Origin: Anaerolineae bacterium
Lineage (GTDB): Bacteria; Chloroflexota; Anaerolineae; Aggregatilineales; JAFGMM01
Direction: 5' to 3'
Assembly (NCBI GenBank): GCA_027494055.1
Contig: JAOSJO010000024.1
Coordinates: forward strand, 186,001-250,000
DNA: 64,000 bases
Part shown: positions 54,747 through 64,000 of the stretch, piece by piece
Position numbering within the stretch: position 1 is the first letter of the stretch
Layout of the letters: each line of letters begins with the position of its first letter
Translations under genes and position numbers: made by a program
The notes under the pieces: model-generated
What the model was told of the DNA's origin: nothing
Databases searched by the model: none
What the model saw: only the letters and a program-made list of their open reading frames with translations

Positions 54747-55466
54747 ATGGACGACGACAAAGTCAGGAAAGCCCGCCGCAGCCAGTTGCCCTCCAATGAA
54801 GCGCTGGACCGCATCCCGGTGGAGGAGCTGATCCAGGCCGCACGCGCGATGGAAGCGCGCCTGCGCGAGGCCAGCGAAGCCACACGCCGCCGCCTGGAGA
54901 TGGACCTGCGCGATGAGGCCATCGTCCAGAGCGGGCTGCGCATCGACAACGCCCCGCTGCCAATCCAGAAGTTCCTCAGCGGCGAGATCGACCTCGACAG
55001 CGAGTTGAGCCGGCGGTTCAATAACGCGCCGCTCCTGTCGTCCGCTACGTTCCGCCCCAAAGACGCCGGCGAGCCGGCGACCCGGTCCAGCGCCACCCTC
55101 GCCAGCCAGGACGGCGCGGCCTCGGTCACGTTTGAGATCATCGCCGGGGAGGGCAGCCCCACGACCGAGGTGGTCTTCGATCTCATGTCGATGGTCGCGC
55201 TGCGCTTCAACCTGCGCGGGCTGACCGAGACCGACCGGCGGCGCTGGCTGGACCTGATGCGCCGCGAGGACCGGGAAGGGAGCACGGCGTTCCTGTGGTC
55301 GGCGGCGCGCTGGCAGAGCGACTACCTCATCTTCGTGATGCGCGAGTACCACGTGCGCCTGTATGCCTTCTCGCCCCAACGCCACGAGGCCGCCGCCCGG
55401 CTCACCCGCCCTGTCGCCAACCAGCTCATCAACTGGCTGGACGCCCGCTGGTTCCCAGGCGGCTAG
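54747..55466 (+). CDS. Conserved-looking protein of unknown function
   Basis: 239 residues. The N-terminal 60 residues are charged and helical (VRKARRSQLPSNEALDRIP, then ELIQAARAMEARLREA) and could form a coiled coil. The C-terminal half has alternating hydrophobic pattern and a Trp/Tyr-rich end (SAARWQSDYLIFVMREYHV). No signal peptide, TM segment or known motif. GGGGAGG precedes ATG 54747. It faces away from the ferredoxin operon and leads, after 55 bases, into the epimerase gene. Intact; codon usage matches its surroundings. Confidence 0.72.
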   Translation: MDDDKVRKARRSQLPSNEALDRIPVEELIQAARAMEARLREASEATRRRLEMDLRDEAIVQSGLRIDNAPLPIQKFLSGEIDLDSELSRRFNNAPLLSSATFRPKDAGEPATRSSATLASQDGAASVTFEIIAGEGSPTTEVVFDLMSMVALRFNLRGLTETDRRRWLDLMRREDREGSTAFLWSAARWQSDYLIFVMREYHVRLYAFSPQRHEAAARLTRPVANQLINWLDARWFPGG

Positions 55467-55521
55467 GGGACCGCATCGCCTTACCTGCGCTCAGACCGGG
55501 ATCAACAAAGCGAGGTCATCC

Positions 55522-56574
55522 ATGCAACTCAGGACCGAAATCCTCACGCTGCATCTGCGCACGCCGTTCCGCATCGCGCACGGCGTAAGCGAGACCCGGC
55601 AAAGCGTGATCGTGTACCTGGAAGATGCGGTCGGCGAGGCCGCGCTTGCTCCCTACTACGGCGTCACGCCCGAACACGTCATCGCCTACCTGAGCGACCC
55701 GCGCGTCGAGGCGGCGCTCGACGGCGACCTGCTGCTGCGCGAGGACATCCTTGACCGGCTGCCTCCGGGCCCGATGCCGGCGCGCGCCGCCTGGACGTCG
55801 CCCTGCACGACTTCGCGGGCAAGCGCCTGGGCGCGCCGCTGTATCGGCTGTGGGGCCTCAACCTGGGCGGATGCCGCGCAGTTCCTTTACCATCAGCCAG
55901 GAGACAGACGAAGCCGCGCTGCGGCAGCGCCTCCACGAGGCGGCAGACTATCCAATTCTCAAGCTCAAGCTTGGCACAGGCGACCTCGACGCCGACCTGC
56001 GCATGGTGCGCATCGCCCGCGAAGCCACCAACGCGCAGCTCTGCGTGGACGCCAACGCGGGCTGGTCCGTGGACGAGGCCGCCGACATCATCCGCGCCTG
56101 GCCGGGTTTGGCCTGCTCTTCGTCGAACAGCCGCTCGCGCGCGACGACATCGCGGGTTGGCACAAACTCCGGGCGCGGCTGCCCGCCGACATGCCGCCCC
56201 CTGATCGCCGACGGGTCGGCGCACATGACAAAGGACATCCCCCCCGCTGGCCGGCGCTGCCGACGGTGTGAACATCAAGCTCGCCAAGTCGGGCGGCTCT
56301 CCGCGAGGCGTGGCGCATGGTCCAGGTGGCGCGCGCGTTCGACATGAAAGTGATGCTCGGCTGCATGGTCGAAAGCGCGGTCGGCGTGACCGCCGCCGGG
56401 CACCTTGCGCCGCTCGTCGATTTCGCGGACCTGGACGGCAACCTGCTTGTGTCGAACGACCCCTTCGACGGGCTGAGAATGCGGGCCGGGGAACTCGCGC
56501 TGCCGAATGATGCCGGCCTGGGCGTCAAGCGCGTGCTGCCCTCGGCGCATCCGGTCGAGCCGCAGATGAAGTAG
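55522..56574 (+). CDS. Enolase-superfamily (mandelate racemase/dipeptide-epimerase-like) enzyme, many frameshifts
   Basis: About 350 residues spread over several frames. The N-domain (LRTPFRIAHGVSETRQSVIV) and barrel motifs LKLKLGTGD (KxK acid-base lysines), CVDANAGWSV (metal Asp), FVEQPLARDD (metal Glu), ADGSAH and the late LGCMVES segment match the muconate-lactonizing/dipeptide-epimerase group. At least five shifts (about 55785, 55865, 56103, 56203, 56300) are needed within 800 bases, the worst density in the window. It may be a true pseudogene or several base errors; all active-site residues can be found. Confidence 0.72.
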
Positions 56575-56660
56575 CGCCGCGCCGCCGCGCGCGGGCGTCC
56601 TTGCGCTTTGAATTCGAAAACGTCAGAATAAGGGAACCGGCATAGTCAGAAGGTGCAGCC

Positions 56661-59600
56661 ATGCCGCTCCGTTCCCGCATACGTGCAACGGCCCGGAAGG
56701 CGTCCGACGCCGCGCCCCCGCAGGCGCTGGCCGCCGATCTGCGGGCGCGCGTCGGCCCCTACGCTGAGGTCATCACCAACGAGACCCGGCGCGACCTCTA
56801 CACGCGCGACCGTTCCGGGTGGCCGGCGTCCCCGGCGAAACGCCGGGACGCGCGCCCTGCGCTTGTGTTGAAGCCCGGCTCGGTCGAGGACATCGCTGCC
56901 GCTGTGGAATGGGCGCACGCGCACCGCGTACCCATCGTGCCGCGCGGCCTCTCGACCACGGCGCACGGCGAGTCCGTGCCGGCGTCCGGCGGCCTGCTCC
57001 TGGACCTGGCGCAGTTCAACCGCATCGGCCCGCTTGACCCCGACGCGCGCACCGTCCAGGTTGAGGCGGGCGTGACCTGGGGCGACCTGGATGCCTATCT
57101 GGAGCGGAGCGGGCTGACGCTCGCGACGTACCCGGCAAGCCGCTTTTCGACCGTGGGCGGCTGGGTCGCGACCGGCGGGCTGGGCGTCAACAGCTTCGGT
57201 TACGGGCACCTGCGGCGGTGGGTGGCTGCGCTGGAGGTCGTGACCGGCGCGGGCGAACGCCGGTCGCTCAACCCGCGCGACAAGCTCTTCGAGGCGTTTT
57301 TCGGCGCGGAGGGTGCGGTGGGGGTGGTGGCCGGCGTCACGCTGCGCCTGCGCCCCGCGCCGACGTTCAGCCTTGCGCACCTCTTCTACTTTGCATCGAC
57401 GGCGGACCAGATCGCCTTCGTCCGGTGGCTGATCGAAACTGAAACACAGGTCGCGCACCTCCAGCTCTACGACCCCCGTTTCATGGCGTACCAGAACCGC
57501 CTCTACGCCGAGTCGAACCCGGACCGCGCCCCGCTATACGACGCGCTGCCGGCGGCGCTCGTCCATGTCGACTCGGAGGCGCAGGAGCAGAAGCTGGAGG
57601 ATGTCCTCGCGCGCGCCGAGATGCTGGCGCGTGAGGGTCCGCGCTATGCGGCGGCGGCGCTCTGGCGGCAGCGTTTCTACCCGCTTGCGCTCAAGCGCTA
57701 CGGTCCCAGTCTGCTTACTGCCCCGGTCGCGGTGCCGGTCGCCAACGCCGCCGCGTTCCTGGACCGCGCCATGCGCCTGGGCGAGCGCTTCGGGCTTGCG
57801 CCGGCGGCGACTGCCGTGGTCGCGGAGAACGGCGGCCAGCACGAGGTGTTCGTGACGCCGCTCTTCCCCTGCGACGCGCGGCGGCGGCCCCATCGCTTCC
57901 ACACGCTGCTCATGCACCTGGTCACCGCTGAGGCGATCCGGCGCGGCGGGCGGCCCTATGCTGTTGGCGACGTGAACCGTCTCTTCGCGGAGAAGAAACT
58001 CGGCCCTGGCCGCTGGCGCATCATGCAGGCGCACCGGCGCGTGGTTGACCCCATCGGGGCATTCAACCCGCGCCCCGCGCCGGGGTGGGGCGCGGCCCTC
58101 CAGCGCATGGCGCTCCGCGTCGCCCGCGTGCTTGCCGCGCAGATCGGCCAGTTCGCGCGGATGCTGCACGGCGCGCGCACGCCGCCGCCAGCGCCGCCGC
58201 GCCCCCGGAGCAGCCCGCTCAGCGACGCCGAACTCCACGCGACGATCAACGCCTGCACCGGCTGCGGTTCGTGCGTGCCCGTGTGCCCCGCCTACCTCGT
58301 CACGCACGACGAGGCCACGACCGGGCGCGCCAAGCTCCAGACCGGGCTGCGTGTGCTCCAGGGGGAGACCGTGAGCGAGGTCCGCGCGGAGGCGACATTC
58401 CTCTGCACCTATTGCGGCGCGTGCCAGAACGTTTGCGAGGCGGAACTGCCTTTGCTGGCGGCGTACATGACCATCGAGGCGCAGCTCGCGGCGCAGCATG
58501 GCCGCCCCGACGCCCGCATTGCGGACTTCGTCGCCAGGGTTGAGTCCAGCGCCGCTTACAAGCGTTTCGCGGGCGTGCCCCCGATCCCCGCGCGCTCGGG
58601 TCAGGGCGGCGCGCAACAGCCGCCGCACGCGGCGCCCACCGATGGCGGCGCGACGGCGCGCCGCACGCCCGTTGGCCCCTTTCACGTGGCGCGCTCCGAG
58701 CACTGCATCAACTGCGGGCACTGCGCCCACGTGTGCCCGGTGGAGGTCCACAGCCGGCGCGCCGACGATGTGCGGCTGATGGCGCAGCCGGTCAGCCACC
58801 AGTGCGTGGGGTGTATGCGCTGCGTGGAGGAATGTCCTACCCGCGCGCTGACGGTAAGCCCATCGACCGCCTACGGCGCGATGGGGCAGGGCGTCTTCAG
58901 TGCCGGGGTGGTCCAGCGCCTGGCCCGCCTGGCCGAGACCGGTGCACAGGACCCGGCGGCGCGCGGAGCCGGCGCGCCGAACCTCCGCGTCACGTTGGGC
59001 CGCCGGCTTGAGCGCGTGGAGATCGACGCGGACGGCGCGCTGAAGCCCGCGTATCGCCCGCCCGCCGTCGAACTCGCGGCCCCGATCATCATGACCCTGC
59101 CCCGCATGGCGGCGCGCCGGCGGTCCCAACCGGGGGCCTCGCCGAGGCCCCTCACCGGGGCTATCGCAGAGGCCGCGCGCCGGTTGGGGCTGCTGGCCCT
59201 CCTGGACTGGGACGGGACTCCGCCCGCGCCGGCGGTGGCGCTGCGGGTCGCGGCGGGCCAGCGCGACGCGCTGTTGCAGGCCGCCGGGTCGTTTGCGGAC
59301 GCGCGCCTGCTGGTCGTCGAGCGCCTGGAGGGGGGAGGCAGCCGGGCTGCGCACCCGTTGCCCGGCGCTGGCGCTCGCCGCCGAGGCGCCGCTCGACCCC
59401 GCCGCCGCCGACACGGCGGTGAAGCTGGCGCACGTCGGCGCGGACGCCATCATCCTGAACGGGCGCGACGGACTCCAGGAGGGCCATCCCACAGACATTG
59501 CCCGATATTTACCGGAGGTTCACGAGGCGCTGGCCGCCATCTCGCGCCGCGAGCGCGTGAGCCTGGTCGTGCGCGGCGGCATCGCGGCGGCGGAGGATGT

Positions 59601-59943
59601 GGTCGAGGCCATCATGCTTGGCGCGGACGCCGTCATCGTCGATTGGCCCCTGCTGATCGCGCTGGAGTGCCGCCTGCAAGAGGGCTGCGTGGAGGGCGCG
59701 CACGTCTGCGGGGTGGACGCGGTTGACGCGGACTGGGCCACGCAGCGCCTTGTCAACCTGCTGGCGGCCTGGATGGACCACCTTCGGCAGGCGCTGGGCG
59801 CGCTCGGCGTCGATGACGTGGAACGGCTGCGCGGCGCACGCGGGCGCGCTGCTGCGGAGGCGGCAGCCCGCGCCGGCGCGCCGGGCGGCCTGCGCCACGT
59901 AACCGATCCATCCGTTTCGTTGGCCCACGTATTGGGGAGGTAG
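56661..59943 (+). CDS. Giant fusion: GlcD-like FAD oxidase + Fe-S modules + glutamate-synthase-like FMN domain, one frameshift
   Basis: About 1094 residues. Residues of about 60-210 form an FAD_binding_4 (PCMH) domain (ALVLKPGSVEDIAAAVEWA, STVGGWVATGGLG), followed by the oxidase cap to about 480. A GlcF-like pair follows (CTGCGSCVPVCP, about 533; CTYCGACQNVC, about 579), then a second pair (CINCGHCAHVCP, CVGCMRCVEECP, about 675-720). The rest is a GltS-like FMN barrel: GADAIILNGRDGLQEGHPTDI, RGGIAAAEDVVEAIMLGAD, then C-x5-C-x6-C resembling the 3Fe-4S ligands. A shift in a G6 run near 59335 divides the barrel. Probably oxidises a 2-hydroxy acid or amino compound and passes electrons through the clusters. 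First gene of the terminal operon. Confidence 0.85.
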
Positions 59944-59956
59944 CAGCATCCAGACC

Positions 59957-60382
59957 ATGGACAGTCAGGACGCGACGGCGCGCGAACTTCCGCTTTTCTA
60001 CCATGTGCGCTTGCGCCCCGCGAGCGAGGAGGCGGTGCTGGGCGACGACATGCGCGAGCGCTTCCGCCAGGTGGTCGAGCAGATCGCCGGGCGGGAGGGC
60101 TTCGAGGTCGTGGTAATGTCGGCAGGCGCGAATTTCGTGCAGTTCATCCTCGGCAACCTCGGCGCGCGCGACCTGGACGCGCTGGTCAGCACGATCAAGC
60201 AGGAGACCGCGCGCGGCATCCTGGCAGGCTGGCCGATGCTGGCGCACTTCGCGCCAGAGGGCGACTTCTGGGACGAGGGATTCCTGTACACGTGCCACAA
60301 TGCCGCGACGATTGAGGCGGCGCTGGACTACATCAAGCGGCACGGCGACGTCGATCTGTTTGGTCCGCCGGACGCGCCATGA
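59957..60382 (+). CDS. IS200/REP-type Y1-transposase-like protein without HUH motif
   Basis: 141 residues whose helix-strand pattern follows the Y1 (TnpA/RAYT) transposase: LFYHVRLRPASEEAVLG at the start, a central strand VVVMSAGANFVQFILG, then STIKQETARGIL, a WDEGFLYTCHNAATIEAALDYIK end. Where transposases have H-x-H, this has Phe60 and Gln62, so the metal site is lost; Tyr125 at the catalytic position is kept. It lies 13 bases after the fusion gene and overlaps the next start by 4 bases (ATGA), in the middle of a metabolic operon, with no transposon ends seen. A domesticated DNA/RNA-binding or structural protein is likely. The similarity was judged by eye. Confidence 0.6.
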   Translation: MDSQDATARELPLFYHVRLRPASEEAVLGDDMRERFRQVVEQIAGREGFEVVVMSAGANFVQFILGNLGARDLDALVSTIKQETARGILAGWPMLAHFAPEGDFWDEGFLYTCHNAATIEAALDYIKRHGDVDLFGPPDAP

Positions 60383-61695
60383 TCGAGATCGAGCGCCGGT
60401 CCACGCACCAGCCCCCACAGCGACCCCGGCACGCCATCGGGCCGTGGCGGCCAGCCGTCGCGCGCACCTGTATCGACTGCGGCCTGTGCGTGTCGGTCTG
60501 CCCGACGGACGTGTTCTTCTTCGCGCCTGGGCGGCGGCGTCTCGCAGCGCCGCGCGCCGAGGCCTGCCTGGGGCCGGACGCCTGCGGCGTGTGCGTGCCG
60601 GCCTGCCCCGCCGACGCCATTACGATCCCGCCAAACCCGAACTGGTCGAGCCTCGGCAACGCCGAGTGGACCAACGCGATGATCGCCTCGACCTGGGAGG
60701 CCGGGGCGCACGGCGCGCTGAGCCGCGAGGACCCCGTCGCGATTGGGGAGAGCGGTGACGGGTTTGACCAGATGGGCCTCATCGCGCCGGAGGGCGTGCC
60801 CTTGCTCATCCCGGACGAGGTTGACCTGCGCGTGCCGCTGCACCATCGCGGCCGGCAGGTGTGGATTGAGTTTCCCGTCATCGGTGGGGCGGTCGAGGCT
60901 GGCGCCGTGAGCGCGCCGGTGACGCTAGGCCGGGCGATGGCGGCGCGCGCGCTTGGCATCCTCAGCGTGGCCCCGGCGAGGGCGCTGGCGGGGCGCGGAG
61001 CGCGCTACCGCGAGAACCTGGCGCTGCCGCTGGACGACCGGCCCGACGGCGCTGCGCTCGCGGACCTTGCCCGCGCTGCCGCGATCACGCTGCGCTACCC
61101 CGCCGCGCCCGACCTCTGTGGGCTGAGCGACCTGAAGCAGCGGCTTGGCTGGCTGCAGATCCTCAACCCCGGCGCGCTCCTCATCGTCGAGGTGGACGCC
61201 ACCTCGGACGCGCCGGAGGTCGCCGTCGGCGTCGCGCACGCCGGCGCGCACGTCGTCCACCTGCGCCGCCCGCCCGCCGGCGCTCCCCTTGCCTACACGA
61301 TCAACCCGGTCCATCGCGGCCTCCAGGCCGAAGGCGTGCGCGACCAGGTGGCCGTTATCGCCAGCGGCGGCGTCCGAACCCCTCATGACGCCCTCAAGGC
61401 GGTCGCCCTGGGTGCGGACGCCTGCGCCATCGCCACCGCCGCGCTGGTTGCGCTGGGCTGCATCCCGCCGCGCGACCCTGGCGGCGCGCTGGCCGGTCCG
61501 CCCGGCGTCATCGCCGACGCGCCGTCGTTTGCCGCCCTTGTCGATCCCCGGTGGGTCGCGCGCACCACCGTCAACCTGGTCCTCGCCTGGGCTGCGGAGT
61601 GGCGGCGCGCGCTGGCGGTCATGGGTCTGCCGGACGTGCGCGCGCTGCGCGGTCGCACCGACCTGCTCGCCGTGGTCGGCCAGCAGCCGGCGTGA
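60379..61695 (+). CDS. Ferredoxin/glutamate-synthase-like FMN-domain protein
   Basis: 438 residues. The N-terminus has 4Fe-4S motifs (CIDCGLCVSVCP near residue 31; a second with CLGPDACGVCVPACP near 63-77). A GltS-like FMN barrel follows: PVIGGAVEAGAVSAP, GWLQILNPGALLIVEVDATSD, then ASGGVRTPHDALKAVALGADA, AALVALGC. Unlike the first FMN domain it keeps only one of the three cysteines for the 3Fe-4S cluster. It is the paralogue of the C-terminal part of the fusion protein, and the two may form a heterodimer. Translationally coupled to the Y1-like gene. Intact. Confidence 0.82.
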   Translation: MIEIERRSTHQPPQRPRHAIGPWRPAVARTCIDCGLCVSVCPTDVFFFAPGRRRLAAPRAEACLGPDACGVCVPACPADAITIPPNPNWSSLGNAEWTNAMIASTWEAGAHGALSREDPVAIGESGDGFDQMGLIAPEGVPLLIPDEVDLRVPLHHRGRQVWIEFPVIGGAVEAGAVSAPVTLGRAMAARALGILSVAPARALAGRGARYRENLALPLDDRPDGAALADLARAAAITLRYPAAPDLCGLSDLKQRLGWLQILNPGALLIVEVDATSDAPEVAVGVAHAGAHVVHLRRPPAGAPLAYTINPVHRGLQAEGVRDQVAVIASGGVRTPHDALKAVALGADACAIATAALVALGCIPPRDPGGALAGPPGVIADAPSFAALVDPRWVARTTVNLVLAWAAEWRRALAVMGLPDVRALRGRTDLLAVVGQQPA

Positions 61696-61712
61696 GGTCG
61701 GCGCGATCCGCC

Positions 61713-64000
61713 ATGCCTGCGCACACCCCCGCGCCACCGGACCACGCGCCGCCGTCCAGCCCGGTGGATGGCGGGCTGGTCGGGATCGCCAGCACCCTGC
61801 CGGTTTCGGGCCGTCCCACCATCGAGGCGCTGAGCCGGCTGCGCTGGCGCGGCAACGGGCGCAGCGGCGGCGTCGCCGTGGCCGGGTGCTTTCCCGTAGG
61901 GCTGGCCGACGTCTGTGCGCTCAACATCGCGCTGAGCGCGCGGCACCTGCGCGCCGAGATCGAGCGGGAATTCATCGCGCCGCATTTCGACATCGTGGAA
62001 GCCGAGTTTCAGCCGGACCTGGGCGATTTTCGCGCGCTGGCCGGCCTCCCCAGTCGGCCGCCGGTGGTGGTGCGCTATTTCGTCCGCGCCCGGCAGGACG
62101 CACTCGCCGAGTTCGCCGCACAGCAGGGCCTCGCCGCCCTCGACCGGGCGGAGGACGAGTTCGTCTACTGGAGCGCGACCCGCATCAACCGCGCGCTCTA
62201 CACCGGCCACCCGGAGCGGCGCGCGTTCGTCCTCAGCTATGGGCGCGACCTGATGATCCTGCGAGCCGCTGGCTACGCCGAGGACGTGGCGCGCTACTAT
62301 CGCCTCGACGAGATGCCTGCGCACGTCTGGCTCGGCCACCAGAGTTACGCCACGCGGACCGAACCGGCCGGCGCGAATCCCTTCCCCGCTGTGGACGTGG
62401 CGGCGGCCCTGAGCGGCGGCCTGGTCAACTACGACGCCCTGGCGACCTACGTCCGGCAGCGCGGGTACCTCCCGCTTTTCCGTTCGGACGCCGAGCTAAC
62501 CGCCGCGTTGTTCGACTTCTACCGCCGCGCGTGCGCCTACCCGCTCGACCTGGCGCTGGAAGCGCTCTATCCGACGCCGCGAGACGGCCTCGGCGGCGCG
62601 CCTCAGGCCCGGCGTGAGGCGTACCGCGCGGTCCAGCGCACGCACGTACACGGCGCGCTGGCGGGCCGCGTTGCTTTTGCGGTGGCGCGCGCCTGCCGTG
62701 AGGCGCGCGGCTGGGAACTCATCGCCGCCATCGACCCGGAGCGGCAACACGCCCACGCATTTGGGCTGCAAGAAGGCACGCTCTGGGGCGGGGAGCGCTA
62801 TGGCGTGGGCGTGGTCGCGTCTGAGCTGCAGGCGGTGGAGGCTGTCTTTGCCGCCATCGCCGAGGAGCAGAGCGCCGTGTGCCCCATCCCGGACAAGACC
62901 TGGAGCGCAGGCAGCCTGGATGGCGACTTCGCCGGAAGCGCCGCCGGGGGCGCCATTGGCGGCGCTGCATACAGCTTCACCGTCGCCCCTCAGGAAGACG
63001 GCGGCCTGCGGCTGTGGTGCGCCGACCGGTACGGGCGCGCCATCACGACCGACCGGGCGCGGATGCACCGCGACCCCCGGTATGCCTCGGCTGCGCCGTC
63101 CGAGCTTGACCCCTCGCCCGCTGAGGTCGCCGCCACCCTGCGCACGGATGACGTCGATTCGGCCTACGCGCGGGCGCGCGCGGCGGTCCGGGAATGGGGC
63201 TTCATCCTCCTCGGAAGCTGGCTCGATGGGGTTGTGACCCTGGCTGCGTCGGACCCGGCGCTGCGCTGGCCGGCGATCCAGTTGCTCACCTGGCTCCATG
63301 ACCGGCCCATAGACATCGGCGTCAAGAAGCGGAGCGCGGCGCTGGCGATGCTGCGCCGGGGGCTGGAGGTGCTGTTCCAACGCGCCCGCAGCCGACGTCG
63401 GCGAGTCCGACCCCGGCGACCTGGACCGCCGCCTGACGTGGGTGACGCTCGCCACGCGCGGCGCGCCGACGCCCACAAGCGGGCGGCTCTACATCGACGC
63501 CGCCAACCTGCCGCCCGACGGCGGCGACAGCGTGGCGCAGGTGCTCATCCGGGTGTGCCGCGCGGGCTGGCGCAACATCGTCATCTTCGGTTGCAAAGGC
63601 GACCGCTTTGTCGGCAGCGGGCTGGGGCCAGACGGCAGCGGCCTGCGCGTGGACATCTACGGGACGCCGGGTGATTATCTTGCCGCCGGCCTCGACGGGG
63701 CAGAGGTTCACGTGCACGGCGCGGCGCAGGACATGGTTGGCTACATGATGGCCGGGGGACGCTCGTGATCTATGGCGATGCCGGCCAAGCATTCCTGTAC
63801 GGGGCCAGCGGCGGCGAGGCCTATGTGCTGGGCGCGCCCGGCGCGCGTGCGTGCCTCAATGCCGGGGGACGCTCCGCGTGGCGACGCGCGCCGGCGCGGA
63901 GGTGATCGACTTCGCCCACCCTGACGCCGGCCCGGAACACATACAGGCGATGCAGCGCAAGGCGGCGGCGTTCTTTGGCCGGCCCGCCGGCGAGGACGCC
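61713..64000 (+). CDS. Amidotransferase-like (class II, apparently inactive) + GXGXG domain protein, partial, frameshifted
   Basis: At least 760 residues, cut off by the window end. The first domain follows class-II glutamine amidotransferases: GGLVGIAS, LRWRGNGRSGGVAV, WLGHQSYAT, then GGLVNYDALATYVRQRGYLPLF. The catalytic Cys is replaced (Gly20), and the usual GHTRY-type Arg and HNGE motif are missing, so glutamine hydrolysis is unlikely. After a linker, the beta-helix GXGXG domain of glutamate synthase follows (VDIYGTPGDYLAAGLDG, VHGAAQDMVGYMMAGG, VIYGDAGQAFLYGASGG). Shifts lie near 63380, 63757 and 63867; the last two occur in an identical 14-base context. Likely third subunit of the same complex. 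Confidence 0.8.

Follow-up and report, generated by a model that had tools for sequence, protein, structure and literature searches.

A small gene in an Anaerolineae operon encodes a protein that resembles an IS200-type transposase, which raises the questions of where this protein came from and what it does among metabolic enzymes. The gene (59957..60382, + strand) lies in the window, that is, the whole stretch of 64,000 nucleotides that was analysed, and its product, P0001, is a stand-alone protein of 141 aa. The initial annotation had reported a Y1-transposase pattern from start to end, and this was borne out. Pfam Y1_Tnp (PF01797) matched P0001 over profile positions 6-120 of 121 with an E-value of 5.2e-11 and 43.2 bits (cut-off 23), and Trp105 and Tyr125 were kept. 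NCBIfam transpos_IS200 also matched (E 9e-10), at 38.8 bits, which is under the model cut-off of 55. TnpA chains in the PDB were matched at about 4e-5 to 4e-4 overall, including 2fyx at 3.7e-5 and 2xm3 at 2.3e-4.

Coding statistics show 59957-60382 to be a genuine gene. With three neighbouring genes as the training set, a codon log-odds score favoured frame 1 in 8/8 sliding windows, with 0.55 per codon for frame 1 compared to -0.75 and -0.80 for the other sense frames, and the base composition of the three codon positions (0.72, 0.42 and 0.88) likewise pointed to frame 1 as the coding frame. The GC3 of 0.88 is like that of the neighbours and the codon usage is host-like. Since frame 1 is coding in all windows, the missing histidines of P0001 are not a frameshift artefact, and a pair of frameshifts as the origin of the HUH loss was ruled out. 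A direct genome search found one copy of the gene in its own genome.

The structure of P0001 was modelled with AlphaFold from an alignment of 44 relatives (pLDDT 82.7), and the model has the element order beta-alpha-beta-beta-alpha-beta-alpha. A structural match to Y1 transposases was looked for with Foldseek and found: at E <1e-5 the model matched Y1 transposases only, with ISDra2 TnpA as the top match (4e-9). Comparison with ISDra2 TnpA (2xm3) using VIA-align gave a Z-score of 14.3 and 2.3 A over 112 residues, and the best unrelated fold, tRNA-His guanylyltransferase, scored Z 9.1. Because the input alignment was drawn from relatives with the Y1 fold, the model and the sequence match are not independent lines of evidence. 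Together, translation, Pfam, codon scores, AlphaFold and the Foldseek and VIA comparisons identify P0001 as a HUH-less protein of the Y1-transposase fold, and the prediction of a full Y1/IS200-transposase fold is well supported.

Y1 domains for comparison were gathered from the class of the window and beyond. The alignment is gapless around the active site, where D-H-V-H of TnpA aligns with N-F-V-Q in P0001, confirming that both HUH histidines are changed, as had been noted from the sequence; the codons of Phe60-Val61-Gln62 (60134..60142, + strand) stand at the position of HxH in TnpA. Among 29 other short TnpA-type ORFs, with domain matches <100 aa left out of the count, these columns read HxH in 27/29 and YxH in 2/29, compared to FxQ in P0001. 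Trp105 (60269..60271, + strand) is conserved. Tyr125, the first residue of the stretch that ends at His129 (60329..60343, + strand), aligns with the catalytic Tyr on the last helix of TnpA, a correspondence of position in the sequence alignment. The two histidines and a residue ~4 after the Tyr are metal ligands according to a passage of PMC6006769; the third-ligand position (Q131 in IS608) is mostly Gln and sometimes His in intact TnpAs, and is His129 in P0001.

The basic KYRK/KYRR loop of TnpA is replaced by Ala22-Ser23-Glu24-Glu25 (60020..60031, + strand). The KYRK loop aids DNA hairpin binding. Basic residues in this beta1-alpha1 loop number 2.96 of 4 in TnpAs (25 rows), 0.81 in the long ORFs described below (36 rows) and 0 in P0001. 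The net charge of the domain is -9 in P0001, compared to a mean of +6.2 (range -1 to 13) in 31 TnpA rows, -4.9 in 51 long ORFs and +0.1 in seven stand-alone HUH-less forms from elsewhere, which as a group are not acidic, unlike P0001. The whole protein has a net charge of -11 and a pI of 4.6. P0001 thus resembles the IS200/IS605 TnpAs (ISDra2, 2xm3; IS608, 2a6m) in its full predicted Y1 fold (Z 14), its size and its Tyr and Trp positions, but differs from them in lacking the HUH motif, the basic loop and transposon ends, and in being acidic, single copy and placed inside an operon.

All genes of this operon lie on the + strand. A fusion of a GlcD-like FAD oxidase with 4Fe-4S domains (56661..59345; Pfam), with a frame break near 59322-59344, is followed by a first GltS-like (Glu_synthase) ORF directly upstream of the P0001 gene (59293..59943; Pfam), which is in frame with glcD in a same-family orthologue. 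Directly downstream are an Fe-S/Glu_synthase protein (60379..61695; Pfam and comparison), a GATase_6-like subunit (61713..63390; weak Pfam match, frame breaks near its end) and an ORF with a GXGXG-like domain (63442..63768; weak Pfam match). The setting between Fe-S/FMN enzymes that had been described needs a small correction: the upstream gene is a split pair of GlcD/Fe-S and GltS-like ORFs, separated by a probable frameshift. The operon (56661-63768) is unusual in its combination of a GlcD-like FAD oxidase/Fe-S fusion, two GltS-type domains and GATase-like and GXGXG-like parts, and only three other genomes (G001, G035 and G186) clearly have a GlcD part next to their GltS pair. Genes in the window are apparently broken by single frameshifts at 59322-59344, 63380-63442 and 55363-56574, and a relative (L012) reads through at the first two sites. 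These breaks probably stem from indels in the assembly, but may be true lesions.

The P0001 gene fits closely between its neighbours. Only 13 nt separate the upstream stop from its ATG, and the reported 4-base overlap with the next gene was found as ATGA (60379..60382, + strand), with the ATG of the next gene at 60379 and the TGA of P0001 at 60380-60382. A repeat search gave no candidates for IS200-type ends at the gene and only short chance-like repeats in 59300-60700, and because of the 13-nt gap upstream and the overlap downstream no LE or RE is possible there, in agreement with the earlier observation that transposon ends were missing. By sequence and model, P0001 can thus securely be predicted to be a HUH-less, non-mobile protein of the Y1 fold.

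In a genome of the same family (G001), the gene order is glcD-FeS, gltS', gltS, GATase-like, GXGXG-like, as in the window, and gltS starts 13 nt after gltS' with nothing between. In 15 genomes, we searched 16 further loci with orthologous or similar gltS'-gltS pairs (L012-L016 and L240-L250) for ORFs of at least 50 aa matching the Y1 profile with filters off. A Y1 ORF was present at 0/16 loci, and the same search recovered the window locus at 3e-27 as a positive control. This rules out P0001 as a conserved partner of the GltS-like operon, and constant co-occurrence with GltS-like genes, raised in the initial annotation, does not hold. The metabolic operon is indeed home to the gene here, but an unstable one, and a role as assembly factor for the complex is weakened, though possible. 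Because none of these 16 loci carries a Y1 ORF, entry of the gene is simpler than loss elsewhere: most simply, it slipped into the operon of this lineage as a bare gene, after one gene's stop codon and before the next gene's start, and loss from all the other GltS-like operons examined is less likely.

Y1-like domains are widespread in the order of the window, where a profile search found matches in 124/154 genomes. In 110/154 the match lay inside an ORF of at least 500 aa, and each of these genomes has a single ORF of this kind; one of the 110, in G146, is instead a fusion to squalene-hopene-cyclase-like repeats. The Y1 domain of this fusion (L059 1274-3400; G146:C112) is HUH-altered (HxR). 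A general scan of genome contigs added 80 more loci, and almost all of them belong to Anaerolineae or Chloroflexi records. The family members are single copy and as a rule 430-1400 aa long (loci including L067-L146 and L150-L196), and the window genome has its own copy outside the window (G000:C24:635491-635874; L047, 1935-5387) in a 1151-aa frame. HxH was found in 0/122 domains of this long-ORF group, in which the HUH columns read YxQ in 74 and FxQ in two, keep the first His only in three and the second His only in four, and hold neither in the rest. The 122 include five hand-assigned ORFs that are <300 aa or cut: L051, a stand-alone form, and L085, L088, L168 and L175, at the end of a sequence stretch or contig. 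Loss of the histidines is thus a feature of the family in this class, and P0001 itself has no close homologue in the data searched. Since a HUH-less Y1 is common to a large family, the loss is not a chance lesion of the fold.

A middle domain is shared by 114/115 distinct ORFs of at least 430 aa, the G146 fusion being the exception, and an N-terminal domain by 98/115; we think that many of the other 17 are cut off at the limits of the sequence taken for their loci. At the N terminus lies a response-regulator receiver domain (Pfam matches in 5/10 and 2/5 proteins scanned, some below cut-off; model Z 19). The profile of the middle domain matches MglB (5e-4) and LAMTOR2 chains, by which it is Roadblock-like. 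The Pfam Roadblock models matched no family member, and the matches listed for a structural model of the family were receivers and did not reach the Roadblock part. The C-terminal domain is Y1-like. For these receiver-Roadblock-Y1 proteins, IS200-like transposase is often the sole strong Pfam label. The family forms one clade (100/99 without the G146 fusion, 77/90 with it) whose branches largely follow genome families, as vertical descent predicts, and it is apparently vertically inherited.

The gene directly downstream on the same strand is polA at 82/100 receiver-Roadblock-Y1 loci with enough flank, comprising 73/81 elsewhere in the class or in general contigs and 9/19 in the order of the window; the count leaves out two loci with <700 bases downstream, and the G146 fusion has no polA. 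The arrangement is seen, for example, at L142 6440-9268. Stand-alone HUH-less Y1 forms of 144-231 aa also occur (L212-L217, family f34) and branch inside the f34 clade; they come from G656, G669, G770 and G784, with four paralogues in G784 alone. In a sample of 241 genomes of the phylum, three matches outside the class lay in frames of at least 500 aa; the two sequences read (G467 and G512) are HxH TnpAs, and the third is from G631. Full-text searches on Roadblock, response regulators and Chloroflexi/Anaerolineae, in a literature with subscription journals mostly outside its scope, returned no description of such proteins, a hint that the family may be new.

As a lone query, P0001 had no match in general genome contigs or in viral contigs, and found one further genome in the search of the order (154 genomes) and one in that of the class (298 genomes). 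In plasmids and phages, the matches (7 and 19 records, respectively) were distant and mostly annotated transposases, with no close homologue among them. Close homologues with an intact HxH at unrelated loci were looked for as well, and only distant TnpAs with about 20-25% identity were found. With no close homologue in the data searched, no conserved partner of P0001 can be named. Trees were built from 70-77 domains and 132 columns with the fragments L042, L044 and L167 left out and, for two of the three trees, with near-identical or similar rows thinned. P0001 fell on the TnpA side in 3/3 trees, with support of 100/99 where the G146 fusion was left out and 98/88 for 27 rows with G146 included; grouping with TnpA rows alone fell short of the support threshold (69/85 and 94/92 in two trees). 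With 132 columns and a branch of ~3 changes per site, a firm placement of P0001 is beyond these trees.

These results bear on a credible minority reading, in which P0001 is an offshoot of a receiver-Roadblock-Y1 protein whose C-terminal domain was duplicated and freed. The stand-alone f34 paralogues are precedents in the class, and P0001 is likewise short and made up of a HUH-less Y1 domain only, but in the best tree it falls outside the f34 receiver-Roadblock-Y1 clade that contains them. A GDFW motif that P0001 shares with the f34 type points to the family, as do the same class of HUH replacement (FxQ, with YxQ and FxQ in the family) and an HMM score of 44.6 bits for HUH-less domains compared to 32.7 bits for intact TnpAs. 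HMMs built from only part of the HUH-less family gave 30.6 and 30.9 bits, no better than the TnpA HMM, and the C-terminal spacing of P0001 is TnpA-like. Forcing P0001 into the HUH-less family cost ~7 log units and was not rejected by the AU test (p 0.21 and 0.22), whereas a grouping with just the stand-alone forms gave p 0.08. Like the long proteins of the class (L047 in its own genome), P0001 has a HUH-less Y1 domain that has lost the basic loop, and such domains are often acidic; unlike these long, fused proteins, whose genes often lie next to polA, it stands alone and is much more diverged. With AU values of about 0.2, either TnpA directly or the receiver-Roadblock-Y1 family of the class may be the source.

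On balance, we favour the interpretation that P0001 is a domesticated, catalytically dead, stand-alone Y1-fold protein, probably serving as a non-catalytic protein-protein module in the GltS-like operon. Domestication is likely, and the proposal fits the HUH-less Y1 fold, the single copy, the absence of ends and the host-like codon usage. In this lineage, a gene derived from an IS200/IS605-type TnpA, or from the C-terminal Y1-like domain of a receiver-Roadblock-Y1 protein, would have landed between two genes of a GltS-like oxidoreductase operon with no transposon ends attached, and co-translation of P0001 with the Fe-S/GltS-like protein encoded downstream is now probable. The product would be a small module, probably dimeric like TnpA, acting for example as a regulator or chaperone of operon products; a nuclease or nucleic-acid binder is less favoured. 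We infer the protein-protein role from charge and lost motifs only, and, with both the positive charge and the basic loop gone, we prefer a protein module to a hairpin binder. Against a pure protein-binding module, Tyr125 and the possible third ligand His129 are kept though not needed there.

P0001 might also be a non-functional passenger, either a decayed yet intact transposase or a recent arrival from an unsampled lineage. Its gene is missing from all related operons examined, no orthologue was found in any data searched and its branch is very long, at ~3 changes per site. We consider this unlikely given the intact, strongly coding frame with host-like codon use, the clean stop/start fit with translational overlap and the survival of fold-critical positions through this divergence, which neutral decay would not have spared. 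Less probable again is a non-catalytic regulator that binds RNA or DNA hairpins. TnpA and RAYT bind hairpins with the Y1 fold, according to the titles of PDB 2xm3 and 4er8, and the helix-2 block of P0001 (TIKQETAR) retains K and R, but the pI of 4.6, the net charge and the lost basic loop count against such binding, and Rfam had no match in 56000-64000; the RNA-binder role first suggested is accordingly disfavoured. It is very improbable that P0001 is an active Y1 nuclease whose metal site has changed (Gln62 and His129, with Tyr125), for although some HUH Reps have Gln as their second ligand, YxH occurs in TnpA-type ORFs (2/29) and in PDB 2fyx, and Tyr125 is kept, Phe60 is unable to bind metal, the basic loop is gone, substrate ends are absent and the gene is single copy.

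Domesticated bacterial transposases are reportedly the subject of Bertels et al. 2017. P0001 shares the Y1 fold with RAYT/TnpA-REP proteins (4er8, Z 11.1). RAYTs have been proposed as domesticated, and those surveyed in PMC6006769 retain the HUH-Y motifs and are accompanied by REP hairpins; that survey judged sequences without core motifs probably non-functional and left them out. Unlike the surveyed RAYTs, P0001 lacks the HUH, and the search for repeats around it (59300-60700) showed only short chance-like ones.

More broadly, and tentatively, the HUH-less Y1 fold could be a recurring non-catalytic signalling module in this class: the ancestral form would be a single-copy regulator with receiver, Roadblock/MglB-like and dead-Y1 domains, encoded beside polA and perhaps still reading the replication fork or sliding clamp, and P0001 would be a second, separate co-option into a metabolic operon. 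IS608 TnpA is reported to bind the beta-clamp and to prefer the lagging-strand template (PMC5371812), and because of this and the polA adjacency a link of the receiver-Roadblock-Y1 family to replication is a natural guess by analogy. RAYTs already offer a known case of domesticated Y1 transposases, but one in which the catalytic HUH-Y core is kept (PMC6006769). Here, a HUH-less Y1 is the end domain of response regulators across a class and, in addition, a stand-alone protein in a metabolic operon. If true, this would mean that a transposase fold is able to persist purely as a binding module and that automatic annotation mislabels a large number of regulators as IS200-like transposases. For these regulators, the polA linkage provides a direct, testable lead.
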